This document shows, piece after piece, positions 12,992-40,489 of a DNA stretch of 64,000 nt. The position numbers and the translations under genes are program-made. The notes under the pieces were generated by a model that was not told where the DNA came from, did no database searches, and saw nothing but the letters and a program-made list of their open reading frames with translations. Positions within the stretch are counted from its first letter, which is position 1; each line of letters opens with the position of its first letter. Source of the DNA: Porphyrobacter sp. AAP82 (GTDB taxonomy: Bacteria > Pseudomonadota > Alphaproteobacteria > Sphingomonadales > Sphingomonadaceae); contig NZ_ANFX01000012.1 of the NCBI RefSeq assembly GCF_000331285.1, forward strand, positions 62,001 to 126,000, read 5' to 3'.

Positions 12992-12992
12992 C

Positions 12993-15900: not shown

Positions 15901-16100
15901 CGACCGGACGCCTCGTCGGCGGCCTGTTCGCCGAGGACGGGCGCAGCACCGCCGAGGCGCTGCGCACCTCGCAGGTCGCACTGATGGACGATGCGGAAAC
16001 CTCGCATCCCTTCTACTGGTCGGCCTTCGCGGTGGTCGGCGACGGCGCGGCTGTCGCGCTGAACGCTGGCCGGGGGGCAGGAAATGGACCAGACCGTTGA
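12993..16100 (+). CDS. Exported TPR-CHAT domain protein (caspase-like peptidase candidate)
   Basis: The 1035-residue protein has an N-terminal signal (LAAGPGAARTEA), a central helical region of TPR-like units (about 190-560), a coiled-coil stretch near 560-600 and a C-terminal CHAT domain (about 700-1030). The CHAT domain has the expected caspase-type dyad: HFATHG near residue 866 supplies His and ILSACDTAG near residue 917 supplies Cys. CHAT proteins cleave or regulate partner proteins. GGAGG lies 8 nt before the ATG, which follows the tpsA stop by one base. Its 3' end overlaps the cyclase gene by 17 nt. Location between adhesin and cyclase suggests it processes the adhesin or senses its export; this is inference. 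With a signal peptide, the peptidase would act in the periplasm. Confidence 0.88.
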   Translation: MIVRRHRLLRSALSLAALGTLGASLAAGPGAARTEARASLALRDTFPIGSNGLCEAQILPPEPGAGLFDRRYSVICRDAAAPVGTLWVVKPKSGETAGPARFAGADADCRGDAARAPGALPGLAAVERLGCKRAGSILATDLLIGSRAGRTYAATGLAAYAKALELGIASLASDAVVPGTVEIPLTSTTDAAAFARQQAEAIAADQALVEAYRRSNAGDYAEAAEFFAVSAAALSGPGAAEAQLNSALQQSNLGSFTEARRLFAAARSGSSGSPVLARMQRNYEGMDALNQRQPARALAVLDAPLSSEFGDAEDVRALTIGAALAGQLASESGRIIAEYSSNLTPLERARLLDGQNAYLKAAALRQLGRGSEAPALLAAAERAFADVRGGRVVSVAWLRAQVLGELAENAERAGQSAEAERFHKQAIGLLEGVYPDSPALGSARAQLAGLFARTGRRDDALAIYRGIIGDADGRPLPSLRSVMTPYFALLTDTTAGGGTAGAAADVFAASQLFQRPGLAQTQAALARELSGGSDEASQLFRTATNLGRGIEQQRVSLLELESQPEASTRLASQIAERRTRLGQLEQQQAEVLVRLAEYPRYRAVAGDAIGLAELQAVLGEGEAYVKLVTLDRDTYVVYATRDAARVWRADATPRQLETLVTQIRESIAVIEGGQVNTYPFDLVHARELYVRLFGPVAGELPGLRHLVFEPDGALLKLPVNLLVTDDASVAAYQARMKAKGADEYDFRGTKWLGRSTQVSTSVGPLAFRDVRAARPSDGKRAYLGLGENTPIGTASPGASRVRAALEAGERCTWSPNIWANPIRADELRGAAAKFGGTAQVLTGTDFTDTGIARLPDLSEFRILHFATHGLVTAPQPGCPPRPALLTSFDKDTNSDGLLSFAEIFDLRIDADLVILSACDTAGSATVGAAREAGVRSGGEFALDGLVRAFVGAGGRTVLASHWPVPDDFDATGRLVGGLFAEDGRSTAEALRTSQVALMDDAETSHPFYWSAFAVVGDGAAVALNAGRGAGNGPDR

Positions 16101-19092: not shown

Positions 19093-20490
19093 ATGATACG
19101 AATTCTGGCGGATATGATCGCTGGCCGCGCGGCACCTTCGGGGCCGCGGCGCGTGTTGGCGCGCGTGGCCGCCGTGCTGGCACTGGCCGCGCTCTACCCG
19201 GTCTCCACAGCGCTCGGCGGCGGCACCTTCGAAGGCGTTGCGACCTGCGCCGGATCGACCTGCCACGGCCGCGCCGAAGGCAATGGCGCGGTTGTCAGGC
19301 AGGACGAGATCGCGACCTGGCAGGAACCGTCCTCGCCCTCGGGCGCGCATAGCCGCGCCTATGCCGTGCTCGGCGGGCGCAGGGGCCAGCAGATCGCGGC
19401 GAGCCTCGGGCTCGGCAATGCGCAATCCGCCCCCGCCTGCCTCGGCTGCCACGCGACAAACGCACCCGCCGGCCAGCGCGGCGCGAAGTTTACCCTGACC
19501 GACGGGGTCGGCTGCGAAAGCTGCCACGGCGCGAGCGGTGGCACCTGGCTTGCCGAGCACTATGCGCTGCCCGCCACCCATGCCTCGAACATCGCCGCTG
19601 GCCTGACCCCGCTCGACAATCCGCGCGCGCGGGCGGGCGTGTGCCTCGATTGCCACTACGGATCGAGCAAGCCCGGCCAGTTCGTCACCCACGCGATGAT
19701 GGCCGCGGGTCACCCGCGCGTGTCTTTCGAGCTCGACCTGTTCAGCGCGCTTCAGCAGCACCACCAAATCGACGGCGATTACATCGCCAGGAAGGGCGCG
19801 CCCAGTTCGGTACGGTTCTGGGCGGTCGGCCAGGCCGAGGCGGTGCGGCGCGCGGGCCAACTCTTCGCCCAGCCCAAGCTCGGCTACGAGGGCGCCTTCC
19901 CGCAGTTCTATTTCCTCGATTGCCATTCCTGCCACCGCACCATCGCCGATGGCCCGAACCGCAAGCTCACCTTCGAGACCAATCCGGGCCGCCCGATCCC
20001 CTTCGGCAACCCGCCCTTCAACGACGAGAACATGATCATGCTGTCGGCGGTCGCAGGCGCGCTGGTGCCGGGCGAGGCGGGCGCATTCCAGACCGCCGCG
20101 CGCGACTTCCACAAGGCGTTCGGCGCCGGCCCTGCCGAAGCGCGCGCGGCCGCGCAGGCGCTCTCGGCGCGGGCGGGGGCGCTGGCTGAAAGCCTGTCGG
20201 GCCGCGCCTATGCCGATGCCGACGCCTTCAAGATCATCGCGATCATCGCCGGCGAGGCGACCGCCCCGCGCTTTACCGACTATGCCGGGTCGGTGCAGGC
20301 GGTGATGGCGGTCGACACGCTGCTCAACGCGCTGGTGCGCGAGGGCCGGGTCACGCAGGGCGCGGCGGCGGGCATCCGCGGCGATATCTCCCGCGCCTAC
20401 AAGGCCGTCGAGGAGCCCAATGCCTATCGCCCGGCCGATTTCCGCACGGCGCTCAAATCGGCCTCGACCGCGATTGCACGGCTGAAATAG
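19093..20490 (+). CDS. Periplasmic pentaheme cytochrome c (c554-like)
   Basis: The 465-residue protein has an N-terminal hydrophobic export segment and five heme c attachment sites: an unusual CX4CH (CAGSTCH, about residue 52), then CLGCH (about 116), CESCH (about 141), CLDCH (about 184) and CHSCH (about 277). The arrangement resembles the cytochrome c554 family, which passes electrons between redox partners in the periplasm. The last 150 residues have no heme site and are helical. A G7 tract just before the ATG probably serves the ribosome. It opens a plus-strand operon with two to three bases between genes and the next members, which suggests it works with the beta-barrel and the ten-heme cytochrome. 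Confidence 0.88.
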   Translation: MIRILADMIAGRAAPSGPRRVLARVAAVLALAALYPVSTALGGGTFEGVATCAGSTCHGRAEGNGAVVRQDEIATWQEPSSPSGAHSRAYAVLGGRRGQQIAASLGLGNAQSAPACLGCHATNAPAGQRGAKFTLTDGVGCESCHGASGGTWLAEHYALPATHASNIAAGLTPLDNPRARAGVCLDCHYGSSKPGQFVTHAMMAAGHPRVSFELDLFSALQQHHQIDGDYIARKGAPSSVRFWAVGQAEAVRRAGQLFAQPKLGYEGAFPQFYFLDCHSCHRTIADGPNRKLTFETNPGRPIPFGNPPFNDENMIMLSAVAGALVPGEAGAFQTAARDFHKAFGAGPAEARAAAQALSARAGALAESLSGRAYADADAFKIIAIIAGEATAPRFTDYAGSVQAVMAVDTLLNALVREGRVTQGAAAGIRGDISRAYKAVEEPNAYRPADFRTALKSASTAIARLK

Positions 20491-20492
20491 CG

Positions 20493-22448
20493 ATGCGCGG
20501 GGGGATCACGACGTTCTGGCTGGCCGCGAGCGCGTTGGTGCTGGCTTCCTGCGGGGGCGGAGGGCCTTCGACCAGCGGCGGCGCGACCGGCGGCACCGGG
20601 CCGACACCCACCCCCACCCCGCCGCCGTCCGGACAGGTGTTCGCGGTGCCCGCCGCCGAAAGCCTGTCGAGCGCCGAGGTCGGCACGATCATCGCCCAGG
20701 CCGCCGCCGAGGCGCGCGGGCGGGGCGTGGCGGCGACCATCGCGGTCACCGACCGGGTCGGCAATGTCCTTGGCGTGTTCGCCATGCCGGGCGCAGGTGC
20801 CACCGCGCGCGTCCCGGCCGCCCCCGACGGCACCAGCCGCGACGCGCAGGGCCTGACCATCCCGGCTGCCGGCGCGGCCATCGCCAAGGCGATCACCGGC
20901 GCCTATCTCTCGAGCGGCGGCAATGCCTTTTCGAGCCGCACCGCAAGCTTCATCGTCCAGGAACATTTCCCGCCCGCGCCGACCACGGTGGGGCTGGAGA
21001 GCGGCCCGCTCTACGGGGTGCAGTTCAGCCAGCTGCCGTGTTCGGACCTCGCCGCGCGCGCCGGCGACGGATTGATCGGTCCCAAGCGCTCGCCCCTCGG
21101 GCTCGCCGCGGACCCGGGGGGCTTCCCGCTTTACCAGAACGGCGTGGTCGTCGGCGGCATCGGGGTGATCGCCGACGGGGTCTACGGCCTCGACACCAAT
21201 GTCCTCGACCGCGACAATGACGTCGACGAGGCGATCGCGCTCGCCGGGACGGTCGGCTTCGAGGCGCCAGTCAGCATCCGTGCCGACCGCATCACCGCCG
21301 ACGGCACGAGCCTGCGCTACACCGATGTCGAATATCCGCAACTCGGCGCAGTGGCGGGTGCGAGCTTCGCGGCGACTGCGGGCGCGCTGGTGCCGGTCAC
21401 CGGCTATTATGCCGGCGCGGGCCTGCTGCCGGGCGCGACCTATGGCACCGAGGCCTCGGGCATCCGCGCCTCGAGCGCGGCCGAGTTCGCCAACCGCGAT
21501 GCCTTCGTGCTCACCAACGGCGCGGGCGCGAACCGCTATCCGGTGCGCAGCGGCACCGACGGGGGCGATATCGCCGCGCCGCTGACCGCAACCGAGGCCC
21601 GCGCGATCCTCGAGGAAGCCTTCCTCGTGATGAGCCGCGCCCGCGCGCAGATCCGCCAGCCGCTCGACAGCCGCGCGCAGGTGACGATCAGCCTCGTCGA
21701 CACGCGCGGCGCGGTGCTCGGCATGGTGCGCTCGCCCGATGCGCCGATCTTCGGGATCGACGTGAGCTTGCAGAAGGCGCGCACCGCCAATTTCTTCTCC
21801 GCCCCCTTCGCCGCCGCCGAGCTTTCCGCGGCGAGCGGCGAGGTGCCGCAATTCGTCACGAGGCTGCGCACCTTCCTTGGCGATCCGACCGCGCTGACGG
21901 GGGCCTTCGCGCTGTCCGACCGTGCCCACGGCAACCTTTCGCGGCCCTATTTCCCCGATGGCGAGGTCGGCCAGCCCAACGGGCCCTTCTCGCGCCCGAT
22001 CGGGCAGTTCAGCCCCTTCTCGACCGGCTTGCAGAGCGCGCTGGTGGTCGGCAACCTCGCGCAGCACCTCGGCTTTGTGACGGGTGCGAGCGGGACGGAT
22101 ACCCCGCGCGCCTGCACGAGCCTGCCCAATTCGGCCGGCGGCACGCCGCGGCTCGCCAACGGCATCCAGATCTTCCCCGGCTCGGTCCCGGTCTATCGCG
22201 GCAACGTACTGGTCGGCGGCATCGGCGTTTCGGGCGATGGGATCGACCAGGACGACATGATCAGCTTTCTGGGTCTCCACAACGGCGCCGCGCGCGCCGG
22301 CGGGGGCCTCGGCAATGCGCCCGCCGCGATCCGCGCGGACCGGATCGTGGTGCAGGTCGGCAGCCGCCAGGTGCGGCTGCGCTACGTCAATTGCCCCTTC
22401 GCGCCGTTCATCGGCAGCAGCGAACAAAACGTGTGTCAGGGGCTGTAG
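20493..22448 (+). CDS. Lipoprotein with two HbpS/GlcG-like heme-binding domains
   Basis: The 651-residue protein begins with a lipoprotein signal (LASCGG, Cys near residue 20) and a Gly/Thr/Pro linker. It contains two copies of a HbpS/GlcG-type (DUF336) fold, at about 55-280 and 365-640. Each has a V-x-D-(R/T)-x-G-x-V/L-L-G strand pair and a GGIGV(I/S) strand (VVVGGIGV, VLVGGIGV). Members of this family bind heme or heme-related ligands. The duplicated, lipid-anchored form inside a cytochrome operon suggests heme supply or a redox-sensing accessory role. It starts 2 nt after the pentaheme gene and ends 3 nt before the barrel gene. The family call is good; the function is inferred. Confidence 0.78.
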   Translation: MRGGITTFWLAASALVLASCGGGGPSTSGGATGGTGPTPTPTPPPSGQVFAVPAAESLSSAEVGTIIAQAAAEARGRGVAATIAVTDRVGNVLGVFAMPGAGATARVPAAPDGTSRDAQGLTIPAAGAAIAKAITGAYLSSGGNAFSSRTASFIVQEHFPPAPTTVGLESGPLYGVQFSQLPCSDLAARAGDGLIGPKRSPLGLAADPGGFPLYQNGVVVGGIGVIADGVYGLDTNVLDRDNDVDEAIALAGTVGFEAPVSIRADRITADGTSLRYTDVEYPQLGAVAGASFAATAGALVPVTGYYAGAGLLPGATYGTEASGIRASSAAEFANRDAFVLTNGAGANRYPVRSGTDGGDIAAPLTATEARAILEEAFLVMSRARAQIRQPLDSRAQVTISLVDTRGAVLGMVRSPDAPIFGIDVSLQKARTANFFSAPFAAAELSAASGEVPQFVTRLRTFLGDPTALTGAFALSDRAHGNLSRPYFPDGEVGQPNGPFSRPIGQFSPFSTGLQSALVVGNLAQHLGFVTGASGTDTPRACTSLPNSAGGTPRLANGIQIFPGSVPVYRGNVLVGGIGVSGDGIDQDDMISFLGLHNGAARAGGGLGNAPAAIRADRIVVQVGSRQVRLRYVNCPFAPFIGSSEQNVCQGL

Positions 22449-22451
22449 CGC

Positions 22452-24305
22452 ATGACCCCGCTCATCCCCGCCCTGCTGCTGCTCCAGGCTGCCCCTCCCG
22501 AAGAGGCGACACCCCCGGTCGTGCCGCCCGGCGAGGCGCCCGCCGCGCAGGACTGGGAGCAGGACGCGCCTCCTGTCGATCCGCAGATCATCGAGGGCCG
22601 CGAGCGCCCGGGCTACACCGCGCCGCTGCCTGACAAGATCGAGCAGAACAACCAAGGCGCCGTGCGCGCGCCGCCTCCGCAGGCCTTCCCGGCCGAACAG
22701 GTGCCAATCCCCGATCGCTGGCGGCTCATCCAGAGCCTCGGGTTGGTGAAGGAAAACCTGCTCGATCCCTACAATCAGAACACGCTCAAGGGCGACCGCC
22801 CGATCGACCGCGCCAAGGTGCCGTGGCTGCCGATCAAGGAGGACGATTGGTTTTTCGTCGCCAACCTGATCAGCGACACCGTTTACGAGCCGCGCAGTTT
22901 CCCGATCCCTGTCGGCGTCCAGACCACCGAGGATCCGGACCGCAACGACGTGTTCGGCAACGCCTTCAGCCAGGTCTTCAGCCAGACCTTCATCGCCGGC
23001 TTTGCGCTGCTCAAGGGGTCGACCACCTTCAAGCCGCCGGTCGTCGAATACCGCCTGACGCTGGCCTACAACGTCAACTATGTCGATGTGCCCGAGCGCC
23101 GCGTGCTGTTTGTCGAGCCGACGCGGCCCAGCCATCGCCTCGACCATTTCCTCGGGGTGCAGGAGGCTTTCGTCGACTATCACCTCGCGCGGTTCGACAA
23201 TGACCGGTTCGATTTCATCTCGCTGCGCGCCGGGATCCAGCCCTTCCAGTCGGACTTCCGCGGCTTTCTGTTCAACGACCAGCAGCTTGGCGTGCGGTTG
23301 TTCGGGTCGCGCGACAACAACCGCTTCCAGTTCAACCTGGGCGCCTTCTGGCGGCTGGAGAAGGATACCAACTCGGGCCTCAACGATGTGACGCAGGCCC
23401 CGCGCGACGATTTCGTGTTCGTCGCCAACGCCTACCGGCAGGATTTCCTGATCCCGGCCCTCACCAGCCAGATCACCGTCGTCTACAACCGCAACCGCGA
23501 GTCGGGCGATATCGAGATCGACGACAACGGCTTCCCGGTGCGCCCGGCGCTGCTCGGCACCTTGCGGGGCCGCGAATACGACGCTTTCTACCTCGGCTAC
23601 AACCTCGATGGCCGCATCGGCCGCGTGAACCTGACGGGGAGCTTCTACTGGGCGCTCGGCAAGGACCGCAACAGCTTCCTCACCGATCGTCCGGCGGACA
23701 TCAATGCGCAGTTCGCCGCGGTGGAAGCGAGCTATGACCGCGACTGGATGCGCTTCCGGCTCTCGGCCGCCTATGCCAGCGGCGACGAGGACCCCTATGA
23801 CGACACCGAGGGCGGGTTCGATGCGATTTTCGAGAACCCGGTGTTCGCAGGCGCCGACACCTCCTACTGGATCCGCCAGACCATTCCCTTTGCAGGCGGC
23901 GGGCGGGTCATCAGCGTCAATGGCCGCAACGGGCTCCTCAACTCGCTGCGAAGCTCGAAAGAGCAGGGGCAGAGCAATTTCAACAACCCCGGCCTGATGC
24001 TGGTCGGCGCGGGCGCGGATTTCGATCTGACGCCCGAGTTCCGGCTGACCGCCAACGCCAACCACCTGTGGTTCGAGAACACCTCGGTGCTCGAGGTGCT
24101 GCGCAACGAGGGCTCGATCCCCAAGGAGATCGGCTTCGACCTTTCGGCTTCGGCGATCTGGCGGCCCCATGCCAACCAGAACCTCGTCTTCCGCCTGTCC
24201 GCCGCGACCCTGCTGGCGGGCGACGGCTTCCGCGACCTGTTCACTTCCCGCGGGGGTGGAAAGGAATTCGTCTCGATCCTCGCCAACGTGGTGCTGACCT
24301 ACTGA
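22452..24305 (+). CDS. Outer-membrane beta-barrel protein of the cytochrome island
   Basis: The 617-residue protein has a short N-terminal hydrophobic segment, a Pro/Glu-rich stretch to about residue 90, then alternating strands with many aromatic and charged residues typical of a large outer-membrane barrel, ending VLTY. No TonB plug, porin loop or known substrate motif was recognised. It resembles a DUF1302/alginate-type porin only in style. Its place between a five-heme and a ten-heme cytochrome is the arrangement seen in porin-cytochrome conduits such as MtrAB, although it is not recognisably MtrB. It follows the lipoprotein gene by 3 nt, and its stop overlaps the next ATG (TGATG). Confidence 0.7.
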   Translation: MTPLIPALLLLQAAPPEEATPPVVPPGEAPAAQDWEQDAPPVDPQIIEGRERPGYTAPLPDKIEQNNQGAVRAPPPQAFPAEQVPIPDRWRLIQSLGLVKENLLDPYNQNTLKGDRPIDRAKVPWLPIKEDDWFFVANLISDTVYEPRSFPIPVGVQTTEDPDRNDVFGNAFSQVFSQTFIAGFALLKGSTTFKPPVVEYRLTLAYNVNYVDVPERRVLFVEPTRPSHRLDHFLGVQEAFVDYHLARFDNDRFDFISLRAGIQPFQSDFRGFLFNDQQLGVRLFGSRDNNRFQFNLGAFWRLEKDTNSGLNDVTQAPRDDFVFVANAYRQDFLIPALTSQITVVYNRNRESGDIEIDDNGFPVRPALLGTLRGREYDAFYLGYNLDGRIGRVNLTGSFYWALGKDRNSFLTDRPADINAQFAAVEASYDRDWMRFRLSAAYASGDEDPYDDTEGGFDAIFENPVFAGADTSYWIRQTIPFAGGGRVISVNGRNGLLNSLRSSKEQGQSNFNNPGLMLVGAGADFDLTPEFRLTANANHLWFENTSVLEVLRNEGSIPKEIGFDLSASAIWRPHANQNLVFRLSAATLLAGDGFRDLFTSRGGGKEFVSILANVVLTY

Positions 24306-27300
24306 TGCGCGCGCTCACCCAGCCTTTCGCCCGCCACTTCGCGCTGCTTGCCGCCGCCTTCGTGATCGCCGCGACGATGTTCGCAGGCAGCCCGATGGCC
24401 TCGGACGAGGAGAAACCGGTCAAGCGCGACTACAGCCTCGTCATCGCGGCCCCCGCGCCGCAGCGGCAATCGGTCGCCGAGATGGACGCCAAATCCGCAG
24501 GCTGCCTCACCTGTCACGTCAAGACCGATGCGCCGACGATGCACGTCTCGCCTGCGGTGCGATTGGGCTGCACCGATTGCCATGGCGGCAATGAGGCCGT
24601 GCGCGGCAATTCCGAACTGCCGCACGATCACCCCGATTACGTCGCCGCGCGCGATGCCGCGCATGTGCTGCCCAAGTACCCCAATTCCTGGCACTTCCCT
24701 TCCTCGGCGAACCCCAAGCGCTCCTACGCGCTGCTCAACAAGGAATCGCCGGAGTTCGTGAAGTTCATCAACCCGTCCGACTACCGCGTCGCGCGCGATG
24801 CCTGCGGGGCGTGCCACATCCAGTCGATCGAGAGCGCCGAACGCTCGATCATGGCGACCGGCGCGATGCTGTGGGGCGGGGCGAGCTACAATAACGGCAT
24901 CCTGCCCTTCAAGAACTACCTCCTTGGCGAGGCCTACACGCGCGAGGGCGATCCGGCGCATATCACGACGCCGGGCGCGGGGCCGGGGGGCAAGCTGTCC
25001 GGCGATCAGGTCGCGCGCGGCGTGCTTGCCGAGATGTATCCGCTGCCGACCTGGCACGTGATCCCGCCGGGCGATGTGTTCCGCGTGTTCGAGCGCGGCG
25101 GGCGCACGATCAACTCGCAGTTCCCGGAAATCGGCCTGCCCAACCCTTCGGGCTCGATCCAGCGCCTCGACGAGCCCGGGCGGCCCGATTTGAAGCAATC
25201 GAACCGCGGCCCGGGCACCGGCCTGCGCGTGGCGATCCCCGCGCTTAACATCCACAAGACCCGCCTCAACGATCCCTTCACCTGGTTCATGGGCACCAAC
25301 GACCAGCCGGGCGACTACCGCCATTCGGGCTGCGCGAGCTGCCACGTGGTCTATGCCAACGACCGCGAGCCGCGCCATTCGCTGACCTATGCGCAGTTCG
25401 GGCGCGACGGGCAGTCGATCACCGCCGATCCCACCATCGCCGAGAAGATCGCACATCTGGCCGGTGCGGATGACGGCCACGGCGGCCACGGCGCGGTCAA
25501 GCAGCCGGGCGATGACCACCATGCTGATGCGCTCAGGCAGCAAAGCGGTAGCGCAGACAAGGACTCTGACGGAGCGCTGCGCACGGCCTCGGGCGAGGTC
25601 AAGGAAAGCGGCCACCCGCTCCAGCACGTCTTCACCCGCGCGATCCCTACAGCTCAGTGCATGAACTGCCACATGCACCAGCCGAACATCTTCCTGAATT
25701 CGTTCCTCGGATACACCATGTGGGACTACGAGAGCGACGCGCCCTTCATGTGGCCCAAGCAGCAGAAGTACCCGACCGCCGAGGAAGTGCGCGCTGTCAC
25801 CGACCGCAACCCCGAAGGCGCCGCGCCGCGCGGGAACTGGGCCGACCTCGATTTCCTGCGCAATGTCTACGATCTCAACCCGCAGCTGAAGGACACCCAG
25901 TTCGCCGACTATCACGGCCACGGCTGGAACTTCCGCGCGATCTTCAAGCGCGACCGCGAGGGCAATCTGCTCGATGCGCAAGGGCAGATCGTCGACCCCG
26001 ACGATCCGGAGAAGTGGCGCCGCGAGGGCGAGGGCAAGTTCGTGCCTGCCGGCGTCAACCCCGGCAAGGCGGTCCACCTCATGGATATCCATGCCGAGAA
26101 GGGCATGCAGTGCGCCGATTGCCACTTCGAGCAGGACAGCCACGGCAATGGCCTGATCTATGGCGAGGTGGCGAACGCGATCGAGATCACCTGCAAGGAT
26201 TGCCACGGCACGGCCGACGCCTACCCCACCTTGCGCACCAGCGGCCCGGCCGCGCCGCCCGAGGGGCATAACCTCGCCCTGCTGCGCAACCCGGACGGCA
26301 AGCGCCGCTTCGAATGGCTCGAGGGTCCGGACGGCAGGCAACGTCTGATCCAGCGCTCGATCGTCGACCCGAACCTCCAGTGGGAGATGAGCCTCGTCAA
26401 GGATTCGGTCGATCCCGCCACCCCGACCTTCAACGCCAAGGCCGCGCGCGCCAAGCTCGTCAGCCGTTACGGCGCGGAGACCGGCAATTTCGAATTCGGC
26501 ACCGGCATCTCCGAGGGCGACCGCGCGCACCGCGAGCCGGAGATGGCCTGCTTCACCTGCCACCTGTCATGGACGACAAGTTGCGGCGGGTGTCACCTGC
26601 CGATCGAGGCCAACTGGAAGACCCCCGTCCACCGCTATGAAGGCGGCGAGACGCGCAACTTTGCGACCTACAACCCGCAGGTCGCGCGCGATGAGATGTT
26701 CCAGCTCGGCAAGCACATGACCACCAAGGGCAACCAGGTCGCCCCGGTCCGGTCGTCCTCGGCGCTGGTGCTGTCCTCGACCAACATCAACCGCGAGCGG
26801 ATCTATGTGCAGCAGCCGCCGATCAGCGCGATCGGTTTCTCCAGCCAGGCCTTCGCGCCGCACTTCCCGCACACCGTGCGCCTGACCGAGACCAAGACCT
26901 GCACCGATTGCCACTTGTCCGCCAAGGAAGACAACAACGCGATCATGGCGCAGCTGTTCCTGCTGGGCACCAACTACGTCAACTTCGTCGGTCTCAACGC
27001 GTGGAGCGGGCTGGAGGGCGGCTTCCAGGCGACGCGGGTGACCGAGTATGACGAGCCCCAGGCGGTGATCGGCTCCTACCTTCACCGCTATGCCTATCCC
27101 GATTACTGGGGTCTCCACGTCAACCAGAACGGCCGCGAGCTGAAGAACTGGACACGTGGGCGCACCTTCGATGGGGAGATGTCGGGCGAGACTCACCCGC
27201 TCGAACAGTTCCTCAATGTCCACGAAGGCACGCCGGGCCGCGTCGGCTGTCTCCAGCTGCGCGGCGAATACATGTTCGTCGCCGAGGGCAAGGGCGGGTT

Positions 27301-28441
27301 TGCGGTCTATGACGTCGCCAGCATCGCCAACAAGGGCACTTCCGAGCGGATTCTCAAGGGACCGTTCTCCGCGCTCGGCCACGACACGCAGGTCAAGACC
27401 GCCAACGCAACCTGCATGGCGCTCGCCACCAACCAGCCGATCGCGCCGACCCGCAACACCGAAGCGATGCGCGAGGCCAATCAGGAACAGGCCTTCAAGC
27501 CGATCTACAATTTTGCCGCAGTGACCGATGCTTCGGAGGGCCTGATCCTCGTCAACGTCAACACGCTGGCCGACGGCGAATTCCGCAACAATAAGCTGCG
27601 CCGCCACACCTATGCCGACGGCTCGAACGCATGGAACCCGGGCGGCGTGCTGAACGGCGCGCGGCACATCGTGCTGGCGGGCGAGGTCGCCTATATCACC
27701 GCGGCCAAGGGGCTGGTGGTGGTCGACCTCAGCGACCCCGACACACCCAGACTGGCGGCGGTCCGCGAGCTGCGCGATGCGCGGGCGAGCGCGGTGCAGT
27801 TCCGCTACCTTTGGGTGACCGACGCCGACGGGGTGAAGCTGTTCGACATCACGAGCCTGCGCAATCCGGTCGCCGTGCCCGAGGCGACCGTGCCGCTGGC
27901 CGATGCGCGGCGCACGTATATCGCGCGCACCTATGCCTATGTCGCGGCCAAGGGCGATGGCCTCGTCATCCTCAATGTGACCAACCCGCGCAGTCCCAAG
28001 GTCTACCAGAAGGTGACGCTGGACGGGGCGCTGAACGATGCCGAGGACGTGATCGTCGGCACCACCAACGCCTCGCTGTTCGCCTATGTCGCGGACGGGA
28101 AGAACGGGGTGAAGGTGCTCCAGCTCACCAGCCCCGAAAGCCAGCGCGGCTTCTACGGTTTCAGCCCGGCGCCCAAGCCCGAACTGGTCGCCTGGGCCAG
28201 GACTCCGACGCCGGCGATCGCCATGTCGAAGGGCCTCGACCGCGACCGTGCGGTGGACGAGACCGGCGGGCAGATGGCGGTCTTCGGCCGCTTGGGCTCA
28301 CGCCCCTTCACCCGCGATGAGATGGAGCGGATGTTCATGACCCGCAGCGGCGTGCCGTGGAAGGTTACGGACGATGTTGACATGAAGCGCTGGGTCGGGC
28401 TGGCACCGACAGGAGCGCAGCGGGCGAGCGCGCGGAAGTAA
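24305..28441 (+). CDS. Decaheme cytochrome c fused to LVIVD beta-propeller
   Basis: The 1378-residue exported protein has a signal segment (about 12-32) and ten CXXCH sites: CLTCH (about 66), CTDCH (88), CGACH (167), CASCH (343), CMNCH (452), CADCH (602), CKDCH (630), CFTCH (749), CGGCH (760) and CTDCH (866). The C-terminal part (about 980-1300) holds LVIVD-type repeats such as [13 protein letters not shown] and [13 protein letters not shown], expected to form a beta-propeller, often an extracellular interaction module. A His-rich insert lies at about 395-425 ([13 protein letters not shown]). The start overlaps the preceding stop by one base. It is the probable main electron carrier of the plus-strand unit. 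Confidence 0.92.
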
Positions 28442-28470
28442 AAACCGGCGCCTCATGCTTGCAGGGAATC

Positions 28471-28571
28471 GGCCCGCCGCAGGACGGGCCGCAAGGGCGA
28501 ACGCCCGCCCGCAGGCGCCCGGAGCGAAGCGGAGAAGCAGCGCCGAGGACGTGCCCGCGCAAGGCGGGCAC
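28471..28571. repeat. Intergenic hairpin cluster between convergent genes
   Basis: Between the two cytochrome units lie several dyads: GGCCCG/CGGGCC (28471-28490), GGGCG/CGCCC near 28495, and GTGCCCGC/GCGGGCAC with a 5-base loop (28551-28571). The last is flanked by A6 on its plus-strand 3' side, so it is not a canonical terminator on either strand. The makeup resembles a dispersed palindromic repeat. A related GCCCGC/GCGGGC palindrome is at 34795. Confidence 0.45.
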
Positions 28572-28587
28572 GCAAAAAAGGGAAACC

Positions 28588-29457
28588 TTACTCGCGCTCG
28601 GCGAACATGCCCTCGATCATGCCCTGCAAGGCGGGCGTGAAGCGCGCCAGCACCTGCCAGTCGCCGGCCCGCTCGTAGTGCGAGACGAGGGCCTCGCCGT
28701 CCCAGCGGTGGATCGCATAGGTCGGCGGCTCGGTCGTGATGAGCTCGCGCTCGTCGGGCACATGCTGGTCGATCGGCGTCAGGTCCATCGCCACCAGCGG
28801 CGCGACCGAGGGGGTGACCCCGAGCGGAATGCCGGCGAAGCTGGTGCTGATCTGGCGGTGGAGATGCCCGCAATGGATCGCCAGCACCTGTGATTGCCCC
28901 TCGAGCACCGTGTGCAGCCGGGTGATCCAGTCTTCGCCCGGGGCAGGGTCCATCCAGTCGATTCCGGCGACCACCGGCGGGTGATGCATGAAGATCAGCG
29001 TCGGCGTATCGGGCGCCTCGGCCAGCCGCGCGGCAAGCCATGCGGCGCGCGCCTCGCAGAAGGCTCCACCGTGGCGGCCGTCTTCCAGCGTGTCGAGGCA
29101 GATGATCCTTAGGCCCAGTCCGGCATCGACGACATAGTGGAGAAAGCCGCCTTCGGCCGGCACGACCTGCGGAAAGGCGCCAAGCAGGCCTTCGCGGCTG
29201 TCGTGGTTGCCGACCATCGGCAGGATCGGGATCGGGCAATCGGCGAGCAGTGCGACCGTCTTGGAAAAGCTCTCCGCATCGCCGTGATCGGTGATGTCGC
29301 CCGAAAGCACCAGCAGATCGGGGCGGTTGGGCCCTTCGATCAGGCGCTTGAGAGTGGCGCGGAAGCGGGTGAGGTTCAGCTCCTCGGGCTTTTCATCAGG
29401 GGCGAATCCGACATGGATGTCGGTCATCTGCGCGATCAGAACCGCCTTGCCCGTCAT
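28588..29457 (-). CDS. CpdA-like metallophosphoesterase (cAMP phosphodiesterase candidate)
   Basis: A 289-residue cytoplasmic enzyme with all signature motifs of calcineurin-type phosphoesterases of the CpdA group: TDIHVG (about 13), SGDITDHG (about 53), GNHDSR (about 83), MHHPP (about 158) and CGHLH (about 197). CpdA-type enzymes hydrolyse 3',5'-cAMP. The start was placed at the ATG preceded by GGGGGG rather than an upstream in-frame codon. It lies 19 nt downstream of the FHA-cytochrome gene on the same strand, so it is probably cotranscribed with the cNMP-binding flavoprotein. Close linkage to a cAMP-making cyclase and a cNMP-binding oxidoreductase supports a cAMP role, but other phosphodiesters are possible. 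Confidence 0.85.
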   Translation of the reverse strand: MTGKAVLIAQMTDIHVGFAPDEKPEELNLTRFRATLKRLIEGPNRPDLLVLSGDITDHGDAESFSKTVALLADCPIPILPMVGNHDSREGLLGAFPQVVPAEGGFLHYVVDAGLGLRIICLDTLEDGRHGGAFCEARAAWLAARLAEAPDTPTLIFMHHPPVVAGIDWMDPAPGEDWITRLHTVLEGQSQVLAIHCGHLHRQISTSFAGIPLGVTPSVAPLVAMDLTPIDQHVPDERELITTEPPTYAIHRWDGEALVSHYERAGDWQVLARFTPALQGMIEGMFAERE

Positions 29458-29476
29458 GAAATCCCCCCGCCGATTG

Positions 29477-31282
29477 CTATGGTCTAGCCCGTGCGATCTT
29501 TGCCGCAACCTTTGATTTTTCAGGCGGCGGCGGCTTGTAGTGCGGGGCGGCAGGCTGGATCAACTTCAGACCCTGCCATTGGCCCGAGGGCACGTGGTAG
29601 GCGTGGCACATCGCGCAGTCGCTCGGCACGATCTTGGCGGTCTTGACCGCGCTCGCGCCCAGGTGGCACGTCCGGCAGCTCTTGAGATCGGGCATCAAGA
29701 GATCGCTCGCCAGCTTCGAGGTCTCGGCCGCGTGGCAGTCCGAGCACTTCTGCTTGGTGTGCGCAGCGTGGCTGAAATAGCCGCCAGTGAGGAAGCGCTC
29801 GGGGAAATTGACCGGCATGAGGTCGGCCTGCCCCGTCGGCCCGCGGGTCGGCAGGTGGCATTCGGTGCACACGCCCCCGGTGGAGAGCGCGTTCGAGATC
29901 CCGATATAGGCGCGCACCGGCCGGCCGAAATCGGCGCGGTAGGGCGATGCGCTGCCGATCTGTCCGGGACGCTGGCGGCTGGGTGCGAGTGCGGGGCGCG
30001 GGCCCGAGGTGATCCGCGCGAGATCCTCGGCAAGGTTCTTGACGCTGCCGTGGCGCAGTTTCCCGAACCCGCCACCGGCCGTGCGGCCCGAGACCAGGCT
30101 GTGGCACGCCTCGCAGGCCTGCTCCATCTCGACCGGCTTGAAGGTCACCTTGTCGGCGGTTGGCGCGTGGCAGTCCTTGCATTCGAGCGGGGCTCCGTAT
30201 TGCGCGAGGCTCACCGCCATGCGCGCCGCCCCGCCGCGCGGGTTCATGTGGACATCATGCGGGAAGACCAGGCCCGAACGCTCGAGAGGCATGGTCCCGG
30301 CGCTCGCCCGCACGGGCTTGGCCGCGCCGAAGCTTGCGAAATAGAGCGGGCGGAACTGCGGGTGATCCTTGCCGAAATCATGCGCATTGGCGAGGTCGGT
30401 GTCGGCGAGGCGGGTCTTGAGATCCTTGTGGCAATCGCCGCAGAAGGCCTCGCTCGCCGCCTGGGTGCGCACCGGCCCTTCGTGCTCGGAATGGCAGGCG
30501 ACGCAGCCCAAGGGGCCTTCCTTGCCGAAACCCTCGGCGATGGACCATTGCAGCGCATCGCCTTGCGAGAGCGGCGGCATGCCCTTGGCAAGACGCGGCT
30601 TTTGCGCATGATCGGCGATGTCCTTGTGGCACGACAGGCAGGTCTCGTCCTGGACGCTTTCAAAAGCCGCGACGTGGCAGCTTTCGCAATTGTTCTCGAG
30701 GCTGTGGTGCTTCAGCGACAGCTCGCCCGATGACCAGGCGCTGTCCATCAGCACCGCGCCCTCGGTCTTGCCGGTCGGATCGGGCTTGGCGGGGGTGCAC
30801 AGCAGGTGCGAGGCGATCGGCAGGGCCAGCAGCAGCAGGACGATCGCCGCGGCAAAAATCCAGCTCATCGCGCGCTTGCTGGGCAGCTTGGAGGCGAGCG
30901 CAAAGCCGCGCAGCGCGTCCATCTTGCCCTCGTCGGCGATCACCTGGCGGATGGTGATGGCGATATTGCCATCCGCCTCGCGCGTGACAGCGAGCCGCGC
31001 CGCGCCCAGCGCGATCTCGCCGCCGGTGCGCGGGTCGATGGTGCCTTCGGTGACCACCCGGCCATCGAGCCCGAAGCCCAATGTGCCGAGCGCCCTGACG
31101 CCAAGCGTGCCGTCCGCGGCAAGATCGATGCCGACATGGCGCTGCTCCACCGCAAGGTCGGGCAGGTGGATGTCGTTCTCGGCCGCACGGCCCACGGTGA
31201 GGCGCGGCTGGTCGACCACGCGGTCGCGCACGATCTCGCGGCCGGCGGCGGTGAAGTCGATGGTGCGGATCAGGAAAGCCAT
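29477..31282 (-). CDS. FHA domain - transmembrane - decaheme cytochrome c fusion
   Basis: The 601-residue protein has an N-terminal FHA-like domain (about 1-110) with VGRAAENDIHL followed by QRHVGI, close to the GR...S/N..H pattern of phosphothreonine-binding FHA folds. One membrane helix follows (about 139-161). A periplasmic region carries ten CXXCH sites: CESCH (about 199), CLSCH, CVACH, CGDCH, CKDCH, CEACH, CTECH, CSDCH, CRTCH and CAMCH (about 556). Topology would put FHA in the cytoplasm and the hemes in the periplasm. It follows the b-type cytochrome gene by 10 nt. The likely role is to accept electrons from the membrane cytochrome, with the cytoplasmic FHA docking a partner or giving phospho-control. 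The C-terminus is Lys/Pro-rich. Confidence 0.9.
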   Translation of the reverse strand: MAFLIRTIDFTAAGREIVRDRVVDQPRLTVGRAAENDIHLPDLAVEQRHVGIDLAADGTLGVRALGTLGFGLDGRVVTEGTIDPRTGGEIALGAARLAVTREADGNIAITIRQVIADEGKMDALRGFALASKLPSKRAMSWIFAAAIVLLLLALPIASHLLCTPAKPDPTGKTEGAVLMDSAWSSGELSLKHHSLENNCESCHVAAFESVQDETCLSCHKDIADHAQKPRLAKGMPPLSQGDALQWSIAEGFGKEGPLGCVACHSEHEGPVRTQAASEAFCGDCHKDLKTRLADTDLANAHDFGKDHPQFRPLYFASFGAAKPVRASAGTMPLERSGLVFPHDVHMNPRGGAARMAVSLAQYGAPLECKDCHAPTADKVTFKPVEMEQACEACHSLVSGRTAGGGFGKLRHGSVKNLAEDLARITSGPRPALAPSRQRPGQIGSASPYRADFGRPVRAYIGISNALSTGGVCTECHLPTRGPTGQADLMPVNFPERFLTGGYFSHAAHTKQKCSDCHAAETSKLASDLLMPDLKSCRTCHLGASAVKTAKIVPSDCAMCHAYHVPSGQWQGLKLIQPAAPHYKPPPPEKSKVAAKIARARP

Positions 31283-31292
31283 CGCCGCCCCC

Positions 31293-32171
31293 TCACCAGT
31301 AGTAGAACACGCTGATCACATGCGCGGTAAGCGCGGCGATCAGGGCGATTGTCAGCGGGATGTGGATGAACAGCCAGATCTCCAGCAGCGCGCGGATGCG
31401 CAGCGCGCCGCGGATCTGGGCGAGCTGTTCGCGGCGTTTTTCGAGCAGGCTCGCCACCCGCGCCTCGGCCTCGCTGCCGGTGCCCATGCCCGCCAGCGCG
31501 CGAGCGGTCTTGCAGCCGGGATAGCTCCCCGTGAGCCGCGCCAGCGCGCTGCCGTAGAACACGTCCTGGCCGAGCGCGGCGATCACCAGATCGGATTCGG
31601 CGCGCGCCAGCGGCTGCGCGGCGCTCTCCAACTGGCGGTCGAGCGCGGTCAGCGCGTCGAGCATCTGCGCGCGGGTCATTTCCTTGCGATTGGCGCTGAG
31701 GCTCTGCGGCAAGGTCGCATAGACGATCACGCCATAGATGCCGGTCGCGATCACCAGCAGCATCAGGACATAGGCGAGCGTGTGGACGTTCCAGCCGATC
31801 TGGAAGCCGGTGTGAAGCGTGCCCACCACGATCAGCGCAAGGCCGAGGTAGACGTGGGCGCTGGTCCACGCTTTGAGGCTCCACACGCCGGGATTGATGC
31901 GCCGCTTCCTCACGCCGAGCAGCGAAAGCCACAGGATGAGCCCGAAGCCGATGGTGCCGAGCGTATAGCCGTACCACGTGCCGCCATTGGGGCGCGGGTC
32001 CTGGTCGATCATCAGATAGCCCGCGATCGAGGCCGCGCACAGGGCAAGCGCGATCCACAGCCAGCGGAAGCCCTTGTGCTTCAGGAAGCTCACATGGTCG
32101 CTGTCGCGCCGCCGCTCGTCCTGGCTGAAACGTCCCGTGCCGCCCGCCTTTGCCCCCGCTTTGGTCGCCAT
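31293..32171 (-). CDS. Membrane b-type cytochrome-like protein
   Basis: The 292-residue integral membrane protein has about five helices: two near residues 34-90, two at 105-160, and one at 264-290. Several helices contain His suited to bis-His heme b binding: SAHVYLG, GTLHTGF, NVHTLAY, FIHIPLT and TAHVISV. A cytoplasmic-looking helical loop (about 165-255) separates the last helix. It resembles cytochrome b561/ferric-reductase-type electron carriers but was not assigned to a named family. The ATG overlaps the flavoprotein stop by one base (TAATG), so the two are translationally coupled. It probably moves electrons from the cytoplasmic iron-sulfur flavoprotein to the periplasmic hemes. Confidence 0.78.
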   Translation of the reverse strand: MATKAGAKAGGTGRFSQDERRRDSDHVSFLKHKGFRWLWIALALCAASIAGYLMIDQDPRPNGGTWYGYTLGTIGFGLILWLSLLGVRKRRINPGVWSLKAWTSAHVYLGLALIVVGTLHTGFQIGWNVHTLAYVLMLLVIATGIYGVIVYATLPQSLSANRKEMTRAQMLDALTALDRQLESAAQPLARAESDLVIAALGQDVFYGSALARLTGSYPGCKTARALAGMGTGSEAEARVASLLEKRREQLAQIRGALRIRALLEIWLFIHIPLTIALIAALTAHVISVFYYW

Positions 32172-34708
32172 TATTCGACGTCCTCGGTAAGCTTGGCGAA
32201 GGTCAGGAACTTGTCGGGGCTGACGCGGATCGCGGCGCCTGTCGGGCAGGCGCGCACGCAGGCAGGGCCCCCGTCGATGCCGGAGCACATGTCGCACTTG
32301 ATCGCCTGCTTGGCCTTCTGCCCGCCGTCCTTCTCGGCCGCCTTCTTGCGCCAGCTATAGGACGCCTCGCCGGGCCCGGGGCCCGTGCCGAACAGCATCC
32401 ACTGGAGGAGGCTCGGCTTCTTGGGGGGCTTGGCGTCCATGCGGATCACGCCGTAGGGGCAGTTCCTCTGGCAATTGCCGCAGCCGATGCAGGTCTCGTC
32501 GATGAACACCTCGCCGTCGGGCCCGCGCTTGATCGCGTTGGGCGGACAGTCGGCCATGCAGTGCGGGTGTTCGCAGTGGCGGCAGGATGTAGGCACGTGG
32601 AGGTGCGCGTAGGTCTTGCCCGCCTCGCGATCCAATCGCGACAGGCCGTCATGGCTGTCGGCGCAGGCTTTCTCGCAATTGTCGCAGCCGATGCACAGCT
32701 TCTCGTCGATGAGCAGCACGTCGGTCGCCTCGCCGATGCCGTTGTCGACGAGGAACTGCGCGGTCTGCGAATAGAGATCGACCGCGCCCGAAAACTCGTC
32801 CTTGCGGCTTTCGATGAAGGAATTGGTGGCGCGCCGGCCCGACATGTCCTTCAGGGCGCGCTCGCGCAGCGCGGGGTTGCGGTCGAGCAGCGCGAGGAAG
32901 CCTTCGCCCGGCAGGCGGATCACCTCGGACTTGATCGCGGCCTTGACGGTCGCGGTGCGCGCCGATCCGTCGATCACCGCCATCTCGCCGAAATAGGAGC
33001 CCGCCGGCAGGTAGGAGAGGAACACCGGCTTTTCGCCGATCGCCTTCTCGACGATCATCGAGCCGCGGCGGATGATGAAGATGTCCTTGTCGTCCGCGCC
33101 CTCGGTGACGACCACCTCGCCCGCACGCTTTTCCTCGACGCGCGCAGCCTCGACCAGAGGGGCGACATCCTCGCGGGTCAGGCCCGATCCGAACATCTGG
33201 AGCAATTGCCGCTCGATCGAGATGCGCTGAATCGCCGTCTTGGCGCTCGGCACCTGCGATTGCAGCTTCAGCGCGGCAAGACGCGAGATCTCGACGACGA
33301 TGGTGTCCTCTGCCGCGCGGATCGTCGCCCCGCGCCGGCGGCCCGAAATGAGGCCGACCTCGCCGAAGATCGATCCGGCTTCGATGGGAATGGTGATCGA
33401 GGGGTCGGCCGGGTTCACTTCCACCGCCACCGAACCGCTGGCGATCCCGAACAGCGATGACCCGGGGGCATTGCGCTCGAAGATCACTTCGCCCGGCGCG
33501 AAGAACTTCGCCTCCGAATCGAGCATGAATTCGCGCATTTGCAGCGGGTTCATGCCATTGAGGATCGAGACATTGGCGCGCAGGAATTCGAGCCATTCCT
33601 CGGTCGAACGGTTGCCCGGGAGCTTGGCGAACTTGGCGGCGATGATCGGCTCGTCGGCAGGCTTCAATGCGGTGTTGCCGTTGATGAACTCGATGACGTC
33701 GTGGCCCTGGTTCATGCAGTGCTTGATCAGCGGGTAGCCCGCCAGCGCGCCGATCACGAAGATGCCGGGCGCGGTCGATTCGAACACCGGCGACAGGCGC
33801 GGGAAGGCGCCGCGGTCCTCGCTGGTGAACTCGATCCCGCATTCCTCGACAAAGGCGCGCGGCGGGGCCGAGCCGATGCGGGCGATGATCCGGTCGCAGG
33901 GGATGCGAATCTCCCCGTCGCGCGTGGCCAGCGTGATCCAGCCGGGCTCGATCGCCTTGGTCTCGCTTTCGTTCCTGACGGTAAGCTTGCCCGCTTCGTG
34001 ATCGGCCATCAGCGCGCTGACGTTGGCGGCCTTGGCGGTCGGGAATTCGGTGCCGCGGTTGAGGATCGACACGGTGTTGCGCTGCGCCGGGTCCTCGGCA
34101 AGGCCGCGCGCGTTCTCGATGCCTGCGTCCCCGGTGCCGACGATGATGATGTGCTCGTCGACATATTCGGTGGGGTCGTCGAGCTGGTATTGCACATGCG
34201 GCAGGTCCGCGCCCGGGCAGCGCATCAGGTTGGGGTTGCCCTGCGTGCCGATGGCAAGGATGACGTTTTCCGCCATCACCGTCTCGCCATTCGTCAGTTC
34301 GATGGCATAGGGCGGGGCGTGGCGCTGCAACTCCTTGATATTCTTGGTGCCGTCACGCGCGCGGGTGACGATCTGCTGGATACTCCCGGCAATCGCCTCG
34401 CCGGTGCCGCGGATCGCCCTGGCTTCGGCGTGATACTTCACGTTGACCTTGTGGCCCGCGATCTGGTCGTCCCAGATCCCGAGGATCGTCTCGCGCTTGC
34501 CCGCGTCGAAATCGATGTCGCTGCGCAGCACCAGATTGCTGGGCGTCGCCATGACGTGCTTGCCCTTCTGGTACTTGTAGATCGTGTCCGACAAGTGGTC
34601 GGTCTTTTCGAGCAGCACATGGCTCAAGCCCAGCGCCGCCGCCCGCGCAGCCGCACTGAGCCCTGCCGGGCCCGAACCGATGATTGCGACTTTAAAAATC
34701 CCGCTCAC
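32171..34708 (-). CDS. Flavoprotein oxidoreductase - two cNMP-binding domains - 4x[4Fe-4S] ferredoxin fusion
   Basis: An 845-residue soluble fusion. Residues 1-340 form a two-dinucleotide-fold oxidoreductase with FAD motif GSGPAGLSA (about 10) and NAD(P) motif GTGDAGIE (about 190), resembling YpdA/thioredoxin-reductase-like enzymes but without a CxxC redox pair. Two cyclic-nucleotide-binding domains follow (about 405-505 and 520-640). The second has a canonical FGEMAV...SARTATV pocket; the first, FGEVGL...GRRRGAT, is less standard. The C-terminal ferredoxin unit (about 665-830) has four Cys clusters, including CIGCDNCEKAC, CIGCGNCQRNCP and CVRACP, of the HybA/DmsB electron-transfer type. Start is GTG. 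The gene is first in the minus-strand unit. It likely feeds NAD(P)H electrons to the membrane cytochrome, gated by cAMP or cGMP. Confidence 0.93.
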   Translation of the reverse strand: MSGIFKVAIIGSGPAGLSAAARAAALGLSHVLLEKTDHLSDTIYKYQKGKHVMATPSNLVLRSDIDFDAGKRETILGIWDDQIAGHKVNVKYHAEARAIRGTGEAIAGSIQQIVTRARDGTKNIKELQRHAPPYAIELTNGETVMAENVILAIGTQGNPNLMRCPGADLPHVQYQLDDPTEYVDEHIIIVGTGDAGIENARGLAEDPAQRNTVSILNRGTEFPTAKAANVSALMADHEAGKLTVRNESETKAIEPGWITLATRDGEIRIPCDRIIARIGSAPPRAFVEECGIEFTSEDRGAFPRLSPVFESTAPGIFVIGALAGYPLIKHCMNQGHDVIEFINGNTALKPADEPIIAAKFAKLPGNRSTEEWLEFLRANVSILNGMNPLQMREFMLDSEAKFFAPGEVIFERNAPGSSLFGIASGSVAVEVNPADPSITIPIEAGSIFGEVGLISGRRRGATIRAAEDTIVVEISRLAALKLQSQVPSAKTAIQRISIERQLLQMFGSGLTREDVAPLVEAARVEEKRAGEVVVTEGADDKDIFIIRRGSMIVEKAIGEKPVFLSYLPAGSYFGEMAVIDGSARTATVKAAIKSEVIRLPGEGFLALLDRNPALRERALKDMSGRRATNSFIESRKDEFSGAVDLYSQTAQFLVDNGIGEATDVLLIDEKLCIGCDNCEKACADSHDGLSRLDREAGKTYAHLHVPTSCRHCEHPHCMADCPPNAIKRGPDGEVFIDETCIGCGNCQRNCPYGVIRMDAKPPKKPSLLQWMLFGTGPGPGEASYSWRKKAAEKDGGQKAKQAIKCDMCSGIDGGPACVRACPTGAAIRVSPDKFLTFAKLTEDVE

Positions 34709-34723: not shown

Positions 34724-34794
34724 TCGCGGATAGATCGCCCCCTGTGATGCACAATAACCAAAACCGGCTCCGATGCCAGAGCGAATTGCCCCGT

Positions 34795-34824
34795 CATGCC
34801 CGCAGTGCTAGCGAAGCGGGCATG
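34795..34824. repeat. Palindrome overlapping the TPR-gene start
   Basis: CATGCCCGC and GCGGGCATG form a perfect 9-bp dyad separated by 12 bases (AGTGCTAGCGAA). The right arm contains the ATG at 34822 used here as a start. The makeup is that of a dispersed intergenic palindromic element; the alternative is that it encodes residues PRHARSASEAGM if translation begins upstream. Confidence 0.7.
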
Positions 34825-35772
34825 GGACAGGGCGAAAAGCTGCCTCAGGGCGGATCATCGAAGGCGGGGTGGGTGTTGCTGGGGGCGGCATTGCTGCTCG
34901 CGGCAGGCTCGATCGGGTTCAACATCTACCAGGGTTCCGGCGGTGCGGGCGAGCCGGCAGCGGCGGCGAGCGGCGATGCCTCGATCGAGCAACTGCGCGC
35001 CGCAGCCGAGGCGTCCACCGACGATGCCGGCCCATGGGGCGATCTGGCCTTCGCCTATTTCAACCAGGGCCAGTATGACGAGGCCGCCGCCGCCTATCGC
35101 CGCGCGGTCGCAATCGCGCCGGGCGAGGCGGTGCTGTGGTCGGCACTGGGCGAGACGCTGGTGCTGGCAAGCAAGCGCGAGCCGCTCCCCGCAGAGGCAT
35201 TGCAGGCCTTCGAAAAGGCGCTGGCTCTCGATGCCGAAGACCCGCGCGCGCGCTATTTCCTCGCCGCCAAGAAGGACCTCGACAAGGACCACGAGGGCGC
35301 GATTGCGGCATGGCTCGATCTGCTCGCCGATTCGCCGCAGGGCGCGCCGTGGGAGGCGGATCTGGTGCGCACCATCGAACAGGTCGGGCAGATCAACAAG
35401 ATCGATGTCGCGCCGCGCATTGCCAAGGCGCAGGAAGGCCGCAAGCCGGCGATGATCGCACCGGGATCGGGCGCGGTGGCGGGCGCCGGCGCCTCGGACA
35501 ACCTGCGCGGGCCGACCGCGGCCGACGTTGCCGCGGCGGGCGCCATGAAGCCCTCCGAACAGCGCACCATGGCCGAAGGCATGGTCGAACAGCTCGAAGG
35601 GCGGCTCGCCAAGGAGCCGGCGAATATCGACGGCTGGATCATGCTGATGCGCAGCCGCATGACACTGGGCGAACCGGCCAAGGCGAAGGCGGCGCTCGAT
35701 GCGGCGGTCAAGGCCAACCCGGGCGCGGCATCGCGGCTGCGCGAGGCGGCGGCGCAGCTCGGGGTGACCTGA
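34822..35772 (+). CDS. CcmI/CycH-like TPR protein, cytochrome c maturation candidate
   Basis: The 316-residue protein has one N-terminal membrane helix (about 16-36) and TPR units at about 60-150, then a Gly/Ala linker and a C-terminal section beginning MVEQLEGRLAKEP followed by DGWIMLMRSRMTLG. That segment closely resembles CcmI/CycH, the TPR protein that presents apocytochromes c for heme ligation. Divergent placement beside genes encoding 25 heme sites supports a maturation role. The start is uncertain: the chosen ATG lies in the right arm of a palindrome with a poor ribosome site, while GTG at 34744 or ATG at 34747 would add 25-26 residues. Confidence 0.72.
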   Translation: MGQGEKLPQGGSSKAGWVLLGAALLLAAGSIGFNIYQGSGGAGEPAAAASGDASIEQLRAAAEASTDDAGPWGDLAFAYFNQGQYDEAAAAYRRAVAIAPGEAVLWSALGETLVLASKREPLPAEALQAFEKALALDAEDPRARYFLAAKKDLDKDHEGAIAAWLDLLADSPQGAPWEADLVRTIEQVGQINKIDVAPRIAKAQEGRKPAMIAPGSGAVAGAGASDNLRGPTAADVAAAGAMKPSEQRTMAEGMVEQLEGRLAKEPANIDGWIMLMRSRMTLGEPAKAKAALDAAVKANPGAASRLREAAAQLGVT

Positions 35773-40370: not shown

Positions 40371-40411
40371 CGGCAAGCGCCCCCTTGATCGGATTTGGGG
40401 CCGCGTTAGAA

Positions 40412-40427
40412 CGCTTGTAAGTAAGCG
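40412..40427. promoter_or_regulatory. Candidate TetR operator between receptor and regulator
   Basis: CGCTT and AAGCG form a dyad around GTAAGT in the divergent intergenic region, 42 bp before the TonB receptor start and about 63 bp before the regulator. Position and size suit a TetR-family operator. Only 5-bp arms are present, so the call is tentative. Confidence 0.35.
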
Positions 40428-40489
40428 ATATGACAAAGGCCTGGCAGCGGCTTGATGCGTGCCGAGGTGAGCGAAGGTGTTGCCTTTCC

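Follow-up and report, generated by a model that had tools for sequence, protein, structure and literature searches.

The 64,000-nucleotide stretch of the Porphyrobacter sp. AAP82 genome analyzed here (contig NZ_ANFX01000012.1, positions 62,001 to 126,000; hereafter the window) contains seven genes encoding multiheme cytochromes and partner proteins, arranged as two convergent units, A-B-C-D on the plus strand and F-G-H on the minus strand. In the first unit, A (19093–20490) encodes a periplasmic, c554-like five-heme cytochrome (PF13435, 45.4 bits) with four CXXCH motifs and one CX4CH motif, and B (20493–22448) encodes a lipoprotein with HbpS-like domains in three stretches (PF03928, E = 1.2e-20) and no heme c motif. 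C (22452–24305) encodes a predicted 18-stranded outer-membrane barrel, AlgE/OprD-like in its AlphaFold2 model. The start codon of D (24305–28441) overlaps the stop codon of C, and its product is a cytochrome with ten CXXCH motifs and C-terminal LVIVD repeats (PF08309), which public annotation calls hypothetical or merely a multiheme cytochrome. The second unit comprises F (29477–31282), an inner-membrane-anchored cytochrome with ten CXXCH motifs, an N-terminal FHA-like domain, and one transmembrane segment; G (31293–32171), a b561-like membrane b-type cytochrome (PF01292, 26.5 bits, slightly under the cut-off of 30.1); and H (32171–34708), a fusion of an NAD(P)H-type flavoprotein (PF07992), two cyclic-nucleotide-binding domains (PF00027), and a four-cluster ferredoxin domain (Fer4 families). 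An earlier note, made from the sequence alone, had described these seven genes in two convergent units with 25 heme c sites. All seven are present where it placed them, and the heme count (ten in D, ten in F, and five in A) held as 24 CXXCH motifs and the invariant CX4CH; because these motifs are kept in the homologues of A, F, and D, the sites are not chance occurrences. The two PF00027 domains of H and a phosphodiesterase gene, E, were absent from that note. No further multiheme protein of PF13435 or PF14522, the two families tested, was found elsewhere in the genome.

The proposal that these genes constitute one conserved electron-transfer system was borne out by their linkage and co-occurrence. 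D was found in 72 of 200 genomes sampled from the family of the window organism, and C occurred in exactly the same 72, the other 128 being without it. H was present in 71 of the 72 D-bearing genomes, the lone exception being a genome that was 67% complete, and in none of the 128 others. This D–H pattern spans 39 genera and gives a Fisher test value of 4e-54, which is overstated since kin genomes are not independent; it also holds where the two genes lie far apart (e.g., G001, G023, G032, G034, G088, and G120). A, B, C, and D were adjacent in all 22 loci first read. Scanning species genomes with the D alignment recovered at least 594 relatives, from which 80 loci were kept; because the query alignment was headed by a sequence from outside the window's class, this sample is biased away from the window's own relatives. 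The kept loci were titled Alpha-, Beta-, and Gammaproteobacteria, among them Colwellia, Thalassotalea, Parahaliea, Steroidobacter, Duganella, and a Nitrosomonas bin. In the 41 loci with long flanks, C always lay beside D; B accompanied it in 40 loci, F, G, and H did so in 39, and A in 29. The prevailing operon order was H-G-F-B-C-D-A. Neither of the outcomes that the earlier note had named as refuting its view was observed: most relatives keep the genes together, and the barrel occurs only where the cytochrome does. With at least 594 relatives, and with 68 of the family's 188 good genomes carrying the set, its presence in an aerobic alphaproteobacterium is also not the surprise that the earlier note had supposed. 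The closest named matches were from Sphingobium and Sphingopyxis, with the genes on plasmid records in both. For Sphingobium herbicidovorans and Sphingopyxis indica (L022, L023), the records that carry the cluster, in whole or as the A-B-C-D half, are typed as conjugative plasmids.

The conserved features of H would suit an input enzyme under cyclic-nucleotide control. Its PF00027 match (E = 6e-30) covers two cyclic-nucleotide-binding domains in which the phosphate-binding cassette (Gly-Glu ... Arg) is intact. Across 79 homologues, E450 of the first site was kept in 78 and R459 in 79, while in the second site R584 was kept in all 79 and the Glu in 62. Sixteen Fe-S cysteines were invariant in the same alignment, enough for four Fe-S clusters, and the flavoprotein part, of the Pyr_redox type, has no conserved CXXC disulphide. 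Because both pockets are conserved, we propose that the activity of H may be gated by cyclic AMP or cyclic GMP (cAMP/cGMP); the neighboring genes are not the basis of this proposal.

Conservation was also examined in cytochromes A, F, and G. In A, the CX4CH motif (C52-H58) was invariant in 85 of 85 homologues, as were five additional His outside the motifs (86, 156, 200, 207, and 223). All ten CXXCH motifs of F were present in 78 of 82 homologues, and ten additional His were conserved at 0.98 or above; its transmembrane segment lies at 138–156. With ten extra His for ten hemes in F and five for five in A, full bis-His ligation of these hemes is suggested. G contained five His (106, 120, 130, 270, and 284) that were invariant in 81 homologues. 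The FHA-like domain of F matched the Pfam family Yop-YscD_cpl only under its cut-off. The Arg of its GR motif was present in 59 of 82 homologues, and the FHA serine was not conserved, column 46 of this locally gappy alignment being mainly Ala, Pro, or Glu. A role for F as a phosphothreonine switch was rejected on this lack of the serine and on the lack of any protein kinase above the Pfam cut-off in the genome. In loci of other lineages (L110–L120, L137, and L156), genes for a PP2C-like phosphatase, an FHA protein, and at times a Ser/Thr kinase or CHASE2 cyclase stand directly downstream of A. A small conserved protein of ~150 residues, probably secreted, is encoded between F and B in 17 loci (L133, L135, L136, L148, and L169 among them); the window is without one.

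Five genomes sampled at class level contained H without D. Two of these (G454 and G250) encoded only H-G-F and A, with no barrel–cytochrome end, while two others (G258 and G303) encoded H-G-F-A beside another five-heme cytochrome (PF13435 match) and another protein that is barrel-like as judged by sequence. In the fifth (G318), H stood alone. In a sixth case (G223), B lay beside F at a contig end and D was possibly lost from the assembly. Our best reading of these genomes is that H-G-F-A would form a trunk and that the barrel and cytochrome at its outer end would be exchangeable.

The AlphaFold2 model of C, built with 57 homologues, has 18 strands and a mean predicted local distance difference test score (pLDDT) of 78, with most strands above 90. 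It superposes on AlgE with a Z-score of 27.0 and a root-mean-square deviation of 3.0 over 363 aligned residues, and the next structural matches were OprD/Occ porins. Alginate_exp was matched by 9 of the 57 homologues (best E = 1e-6), whereas C had no NCBIfam match, and a PDB sequence search with the profiles of C and D returned nothing useful. MtrB was absent among the 50 structural matches listed for C, which is not proof of its absence. The predicted fold is consequently that of an AlgE/OprD-type solute channel. MtrB has 26 strands (26–28 for the MtrB/PioB type) enclosing a decaheme cytochrome. Since 18 strands are predicted for C, it appears too narrow for this role and is unlikely to sheathe D. 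The adjacent B carries a lipobox (LASC) in the window protein, and a lipobox-like site was found in 73 of 97 homologues.

The ten heme motifs of D were invariant in 52 aligned homologues; fourteen further His of D are also invariant. Against the ExtM family model D scored 67.6 bits (cut-off 800) over a single 52-residue stretch, and it is not an ExtM equivalog. Using hhalign, we compared D with a 12-heme ExtM-like protein from another alphaproteobacterium (G703), which itself scores 226.6 bits with the ExtM model; the two were collinear over 348 columns with a probability of 99.9. Although heme motifs raise scores of this kind, the region of D around its sixth and seventh hemes matched well beyond the motifs, and on this basis D is a distant member of the ExtM superfamily, as judged from these alignments, with an added LVIVD part. 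The gene for the 12-heme protein (L200, 10047–12431) has no other multiheme genes in the surrounding 19 kb. A structure model of the heme region of D was set aside because its mean pLDDT was 57 and Foldseek gave no match below E = 1.

Other genes accompany the set. E (28588–29508, minus strand), located between the two units, encodes an SpdA-like cyclic-nucleotide phosphodiesterase (PF00149; NF050112, 134.6 bits, not reaching the cut-off of 400), an associated regulator that 10 of 112 loci carry next to the set. Upstream of A lies an associated CHASE2 adenylate/guanylate cyclase (16084–18147, plus strand; PF05226 and PF00211), a candidate source of the nucleotide for H, and such a cyclase was near the set in 22 of the 112 loci. 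I (34744–35772, plus strand) encodes an associated CcmH/NrfG-like TPR protein (PF23914, 47.7 bits, cut-off 42), found in 25 of the 112 loci, which is possibly a helper in heme attachment. In other lineages, 26 loci have a PP2C-like phosphatase close to the set, and an MBL-fold hydrolase was near it in 7 loci; the cyclase, phosphodiesterase, hydrolase, and phosphatase associations vary by lineage. Directly upstream of the cyclase, the window encodes a ShlB-type transporter and an MBG-repeat exoprotein of 2584 residues, which together form a two-partner secretion pair, and then a CHAT-TPR protein (3564–16100). Several relatives, Sphingobium herbicidovorans included, have similar two-partner secretion pairs next to the cluster. 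The two-partner secretion and CHAT genes were not retained as members of the set, as they recur in the window's relatives and not in the long-flanked loci of other lineages. Neither operon had an FNR-type box, the two in the window (52699 and 53514) being located by cbb3 oxidase genes; CRP-type boxes showed no excess over chance, and the promoter and terminator scans were close to chance. The cbb3-type oxidase genes, together with FixS and a radical SAM protein that is possibly HemN-like, form a low-oxygen respiration set at 43253–53527, ~10 kb from the cluster.

Comparison with described systems separated the set from the Mtr type. The earlier note had recognized no MtrABC homologue, and indeed no Mtr family model came near its cut-off: the best score for the MtrA/DmsE family (TIGR03508) was 25.1 bits, for F, against 192.2, with none listed for D, and that for the MtrC/OmcA family (TIGR03507) was 17.4 bits, for A, against 209.3. 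The likeness it had drawn to porin–cytochrome conduits of the Mtr kind was not supported, since an 18-stranded AlgE/OprD-like fold, in place of an MtrB-type sheath, is predicted for C. MtrCAB of Shewanella and related conduits do share with the set the pairing of a barrel with a decaheme cytochrome and, if our inference holds, flow from the inside to the outer membrane. They differ in taking electrons from quinol via CymA, whereas here the donor would be NAD(P)H, the input enzyme carries cyclic-nucleotide domains, and the barrel is predicted to be of the 18-strand AlgE type. To our knowledge, an envelope electron pathway that NAD(P)H feeds through a cyclic-nucleotide-binding flavoprotein has not been described. 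The single domains of H resemble the four-cluster ferredoxin proteins AegA/YgfT, HydN, DmsB, and HybA and flavoproteins of the YpdA/TrxR type, from all of which H differs in its fused cyclic-nucleotide domains and multiheme partners. C is alike in fold to the alginate-export protein AlgE and the OprD/Occ porins, but at ~13% identity, and it occurs only together with D. The extHIJKLMNOPQS cluster of Geobacter sulfurreducens includes the porin ExtI, 12-heme ExtM, five-heme ExtKL, ten-heme ExtN, and the cytochrome b ExtP, and loss of ExtI lowers selenite and tellurite reduction (PMC5877670). It shares with our set a porin-like barrel, five-heme and ten- or twelve-heme cytochromes, and a membrane cytochrome b (here C, A, D, F, and G). 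Its published description is without a cyclic-nucleotide-binding NAD(P)H flavoprotein, an FHA-like cytochrome, an HbpS lipoprotein, or an LVIVD region (PMC5877670). The Ext cluster has a Rieske/b pair, while Pfam and NCBIfam scans of window genes turned up no counterparts of the Rieske protein ExtO or the rhodanese ExtH. In open-access text we found no paper on LVIVD multiheme proteins, FHA plus multiheme proteins, or such sets in sphingomonads; the supplementary tables of the MHCscan survey (PMC11475568) may list the set.

Gene content, conservation, linkage, co-occurrence, the predicted fold of C, the conserved pockets, and the alternative ends are the observed basis for a reading to which we give roughly even odds: a cyclic-nucleotide-gated, NAD(P)H-driven pathway that exports electrons across the envelope, with exchangeable porin and cytochrome ends. 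From them we infer the order and direction of electron flow, the gating, the location of D, and the acceptor. Cytoplasmic H would pass electrons from NAD(P)H through its flavin to four Fe-S clusters, and G would carry them across the inner membrane by its b hemes and on to F. Anchored in the inner membrane, F would act as a ten-heme wire delivering electrons to A, a soluble five-heme carrier that would shuttle through the periplasm to D at the outer membrane. There D, with its dedicated barrel C and lipoprotein B, would reduce an acceptor entering through C or met at the surface. Binding of a cyclic nucleotide to H would serve as an on/off switch, sparing NAD(P)H from drain. The order H to G to F to A to D is proposed because the domain chemistry makes it natural, each transfer step being conjectural. 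The acceptor may be extracellular, although a soluble one admitted by C fits equally; a small molecule entering through C is to be taken seriously in view of how C is folded and of the relation between D and ExtM.

Several points weigh against this export pathway. The direction of flow is not readable from the sequence. A was not found within 10 kb in 12 of the 41 long-flanked loci, and vertical descent inflates the neighborhood counts. This genome has three CHASE2 domains. The model of C carries a solute-channel fold, D is without a lipobox or known surface-export signal, and the fourteen extra invariant His of D would be compatible with a catalytic heme. A periplasmic reductase for a soluble acceptor such as an oxyanion or small organic compound, with C as a selective porin, D as the reductase, and no electrons crossing the outer membrane, would account for the AlgE/OprD fold and the distant homology of D to the ExtM superfamily. 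A similar role has been proposed for ExtI and its partner cytochromes in Geobacter, where reduction of selenite and tellurite falls when ExtI is lost (PMC5877670). We nevertheless consider such a reductase rather unlikely, since D resembles ExtM at only 67.6 of the required 800 bits in one 52-residue stretch, B is a lipoprotein, and D has a large LVIVD region. Repeat regions of the LVIVD type are often found on surfaces.

The strict pairing of barrel and multiheme protein, the ten hemes carried by D and F alike, and the C–D start/stop overlap would suit an Mtr-like conduit in which D or another decaheme is threaded through C to reach minerals or electrodes. We find this improbable, given 18 strands rather than the 26–28 of MtrB, MtrA, MtrB, and MtrC models that are all far from cut-off, and hemes in D that are spread over ~800 residues instead of packed within ~300. 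Iron or heme acquisition, in which B at the outer membrane would hold ferric iron or heme for the chain to reduce before uptake, is also given little weight. B does belong to an HbpS-like (heme- and iron-binding) family and is conserved in the cluster about as well as C and D, and a gene that is TonB-receptor-like by its sequence lies downstream (37779–40721), but the latter is outside the conserved cluster. As the sequence does not fix direction, and flavoproteins with the fold of H work both ways, an external donor might be oxidized at D with inward flow reducing NAD(P)+ via H; one relative (L112) is by its title a biocathode bin. At most multiheme potentials, such electron uptake would run uphill unless energy were supplied, and no subunit for energy coupling was seen, leaving it very improbable.

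The set is conserved and widespread, and it has no description as a system so far as the literature searches extend. Rather tentatively, we regard it as a respiratory or detoxifying pathway, as yet without a name, by which cAMP/cGMP in aerobic Proteobacteria may directly gate an NAD(P)H electron line to the outer membrane, with H-G-F-A as the trunk and plug-in ends. The work provides a defined seven-gene set for testing. If true, many supposed plain aerobes would keep a conserved, switchable multiheme line that joins NAD(P)H to the outer membrane, which bears on how sphingomonads, marine gammaproteobacteria, and soil betaproteobacteria handle low oxygen, toxic oxyanions, or iron.

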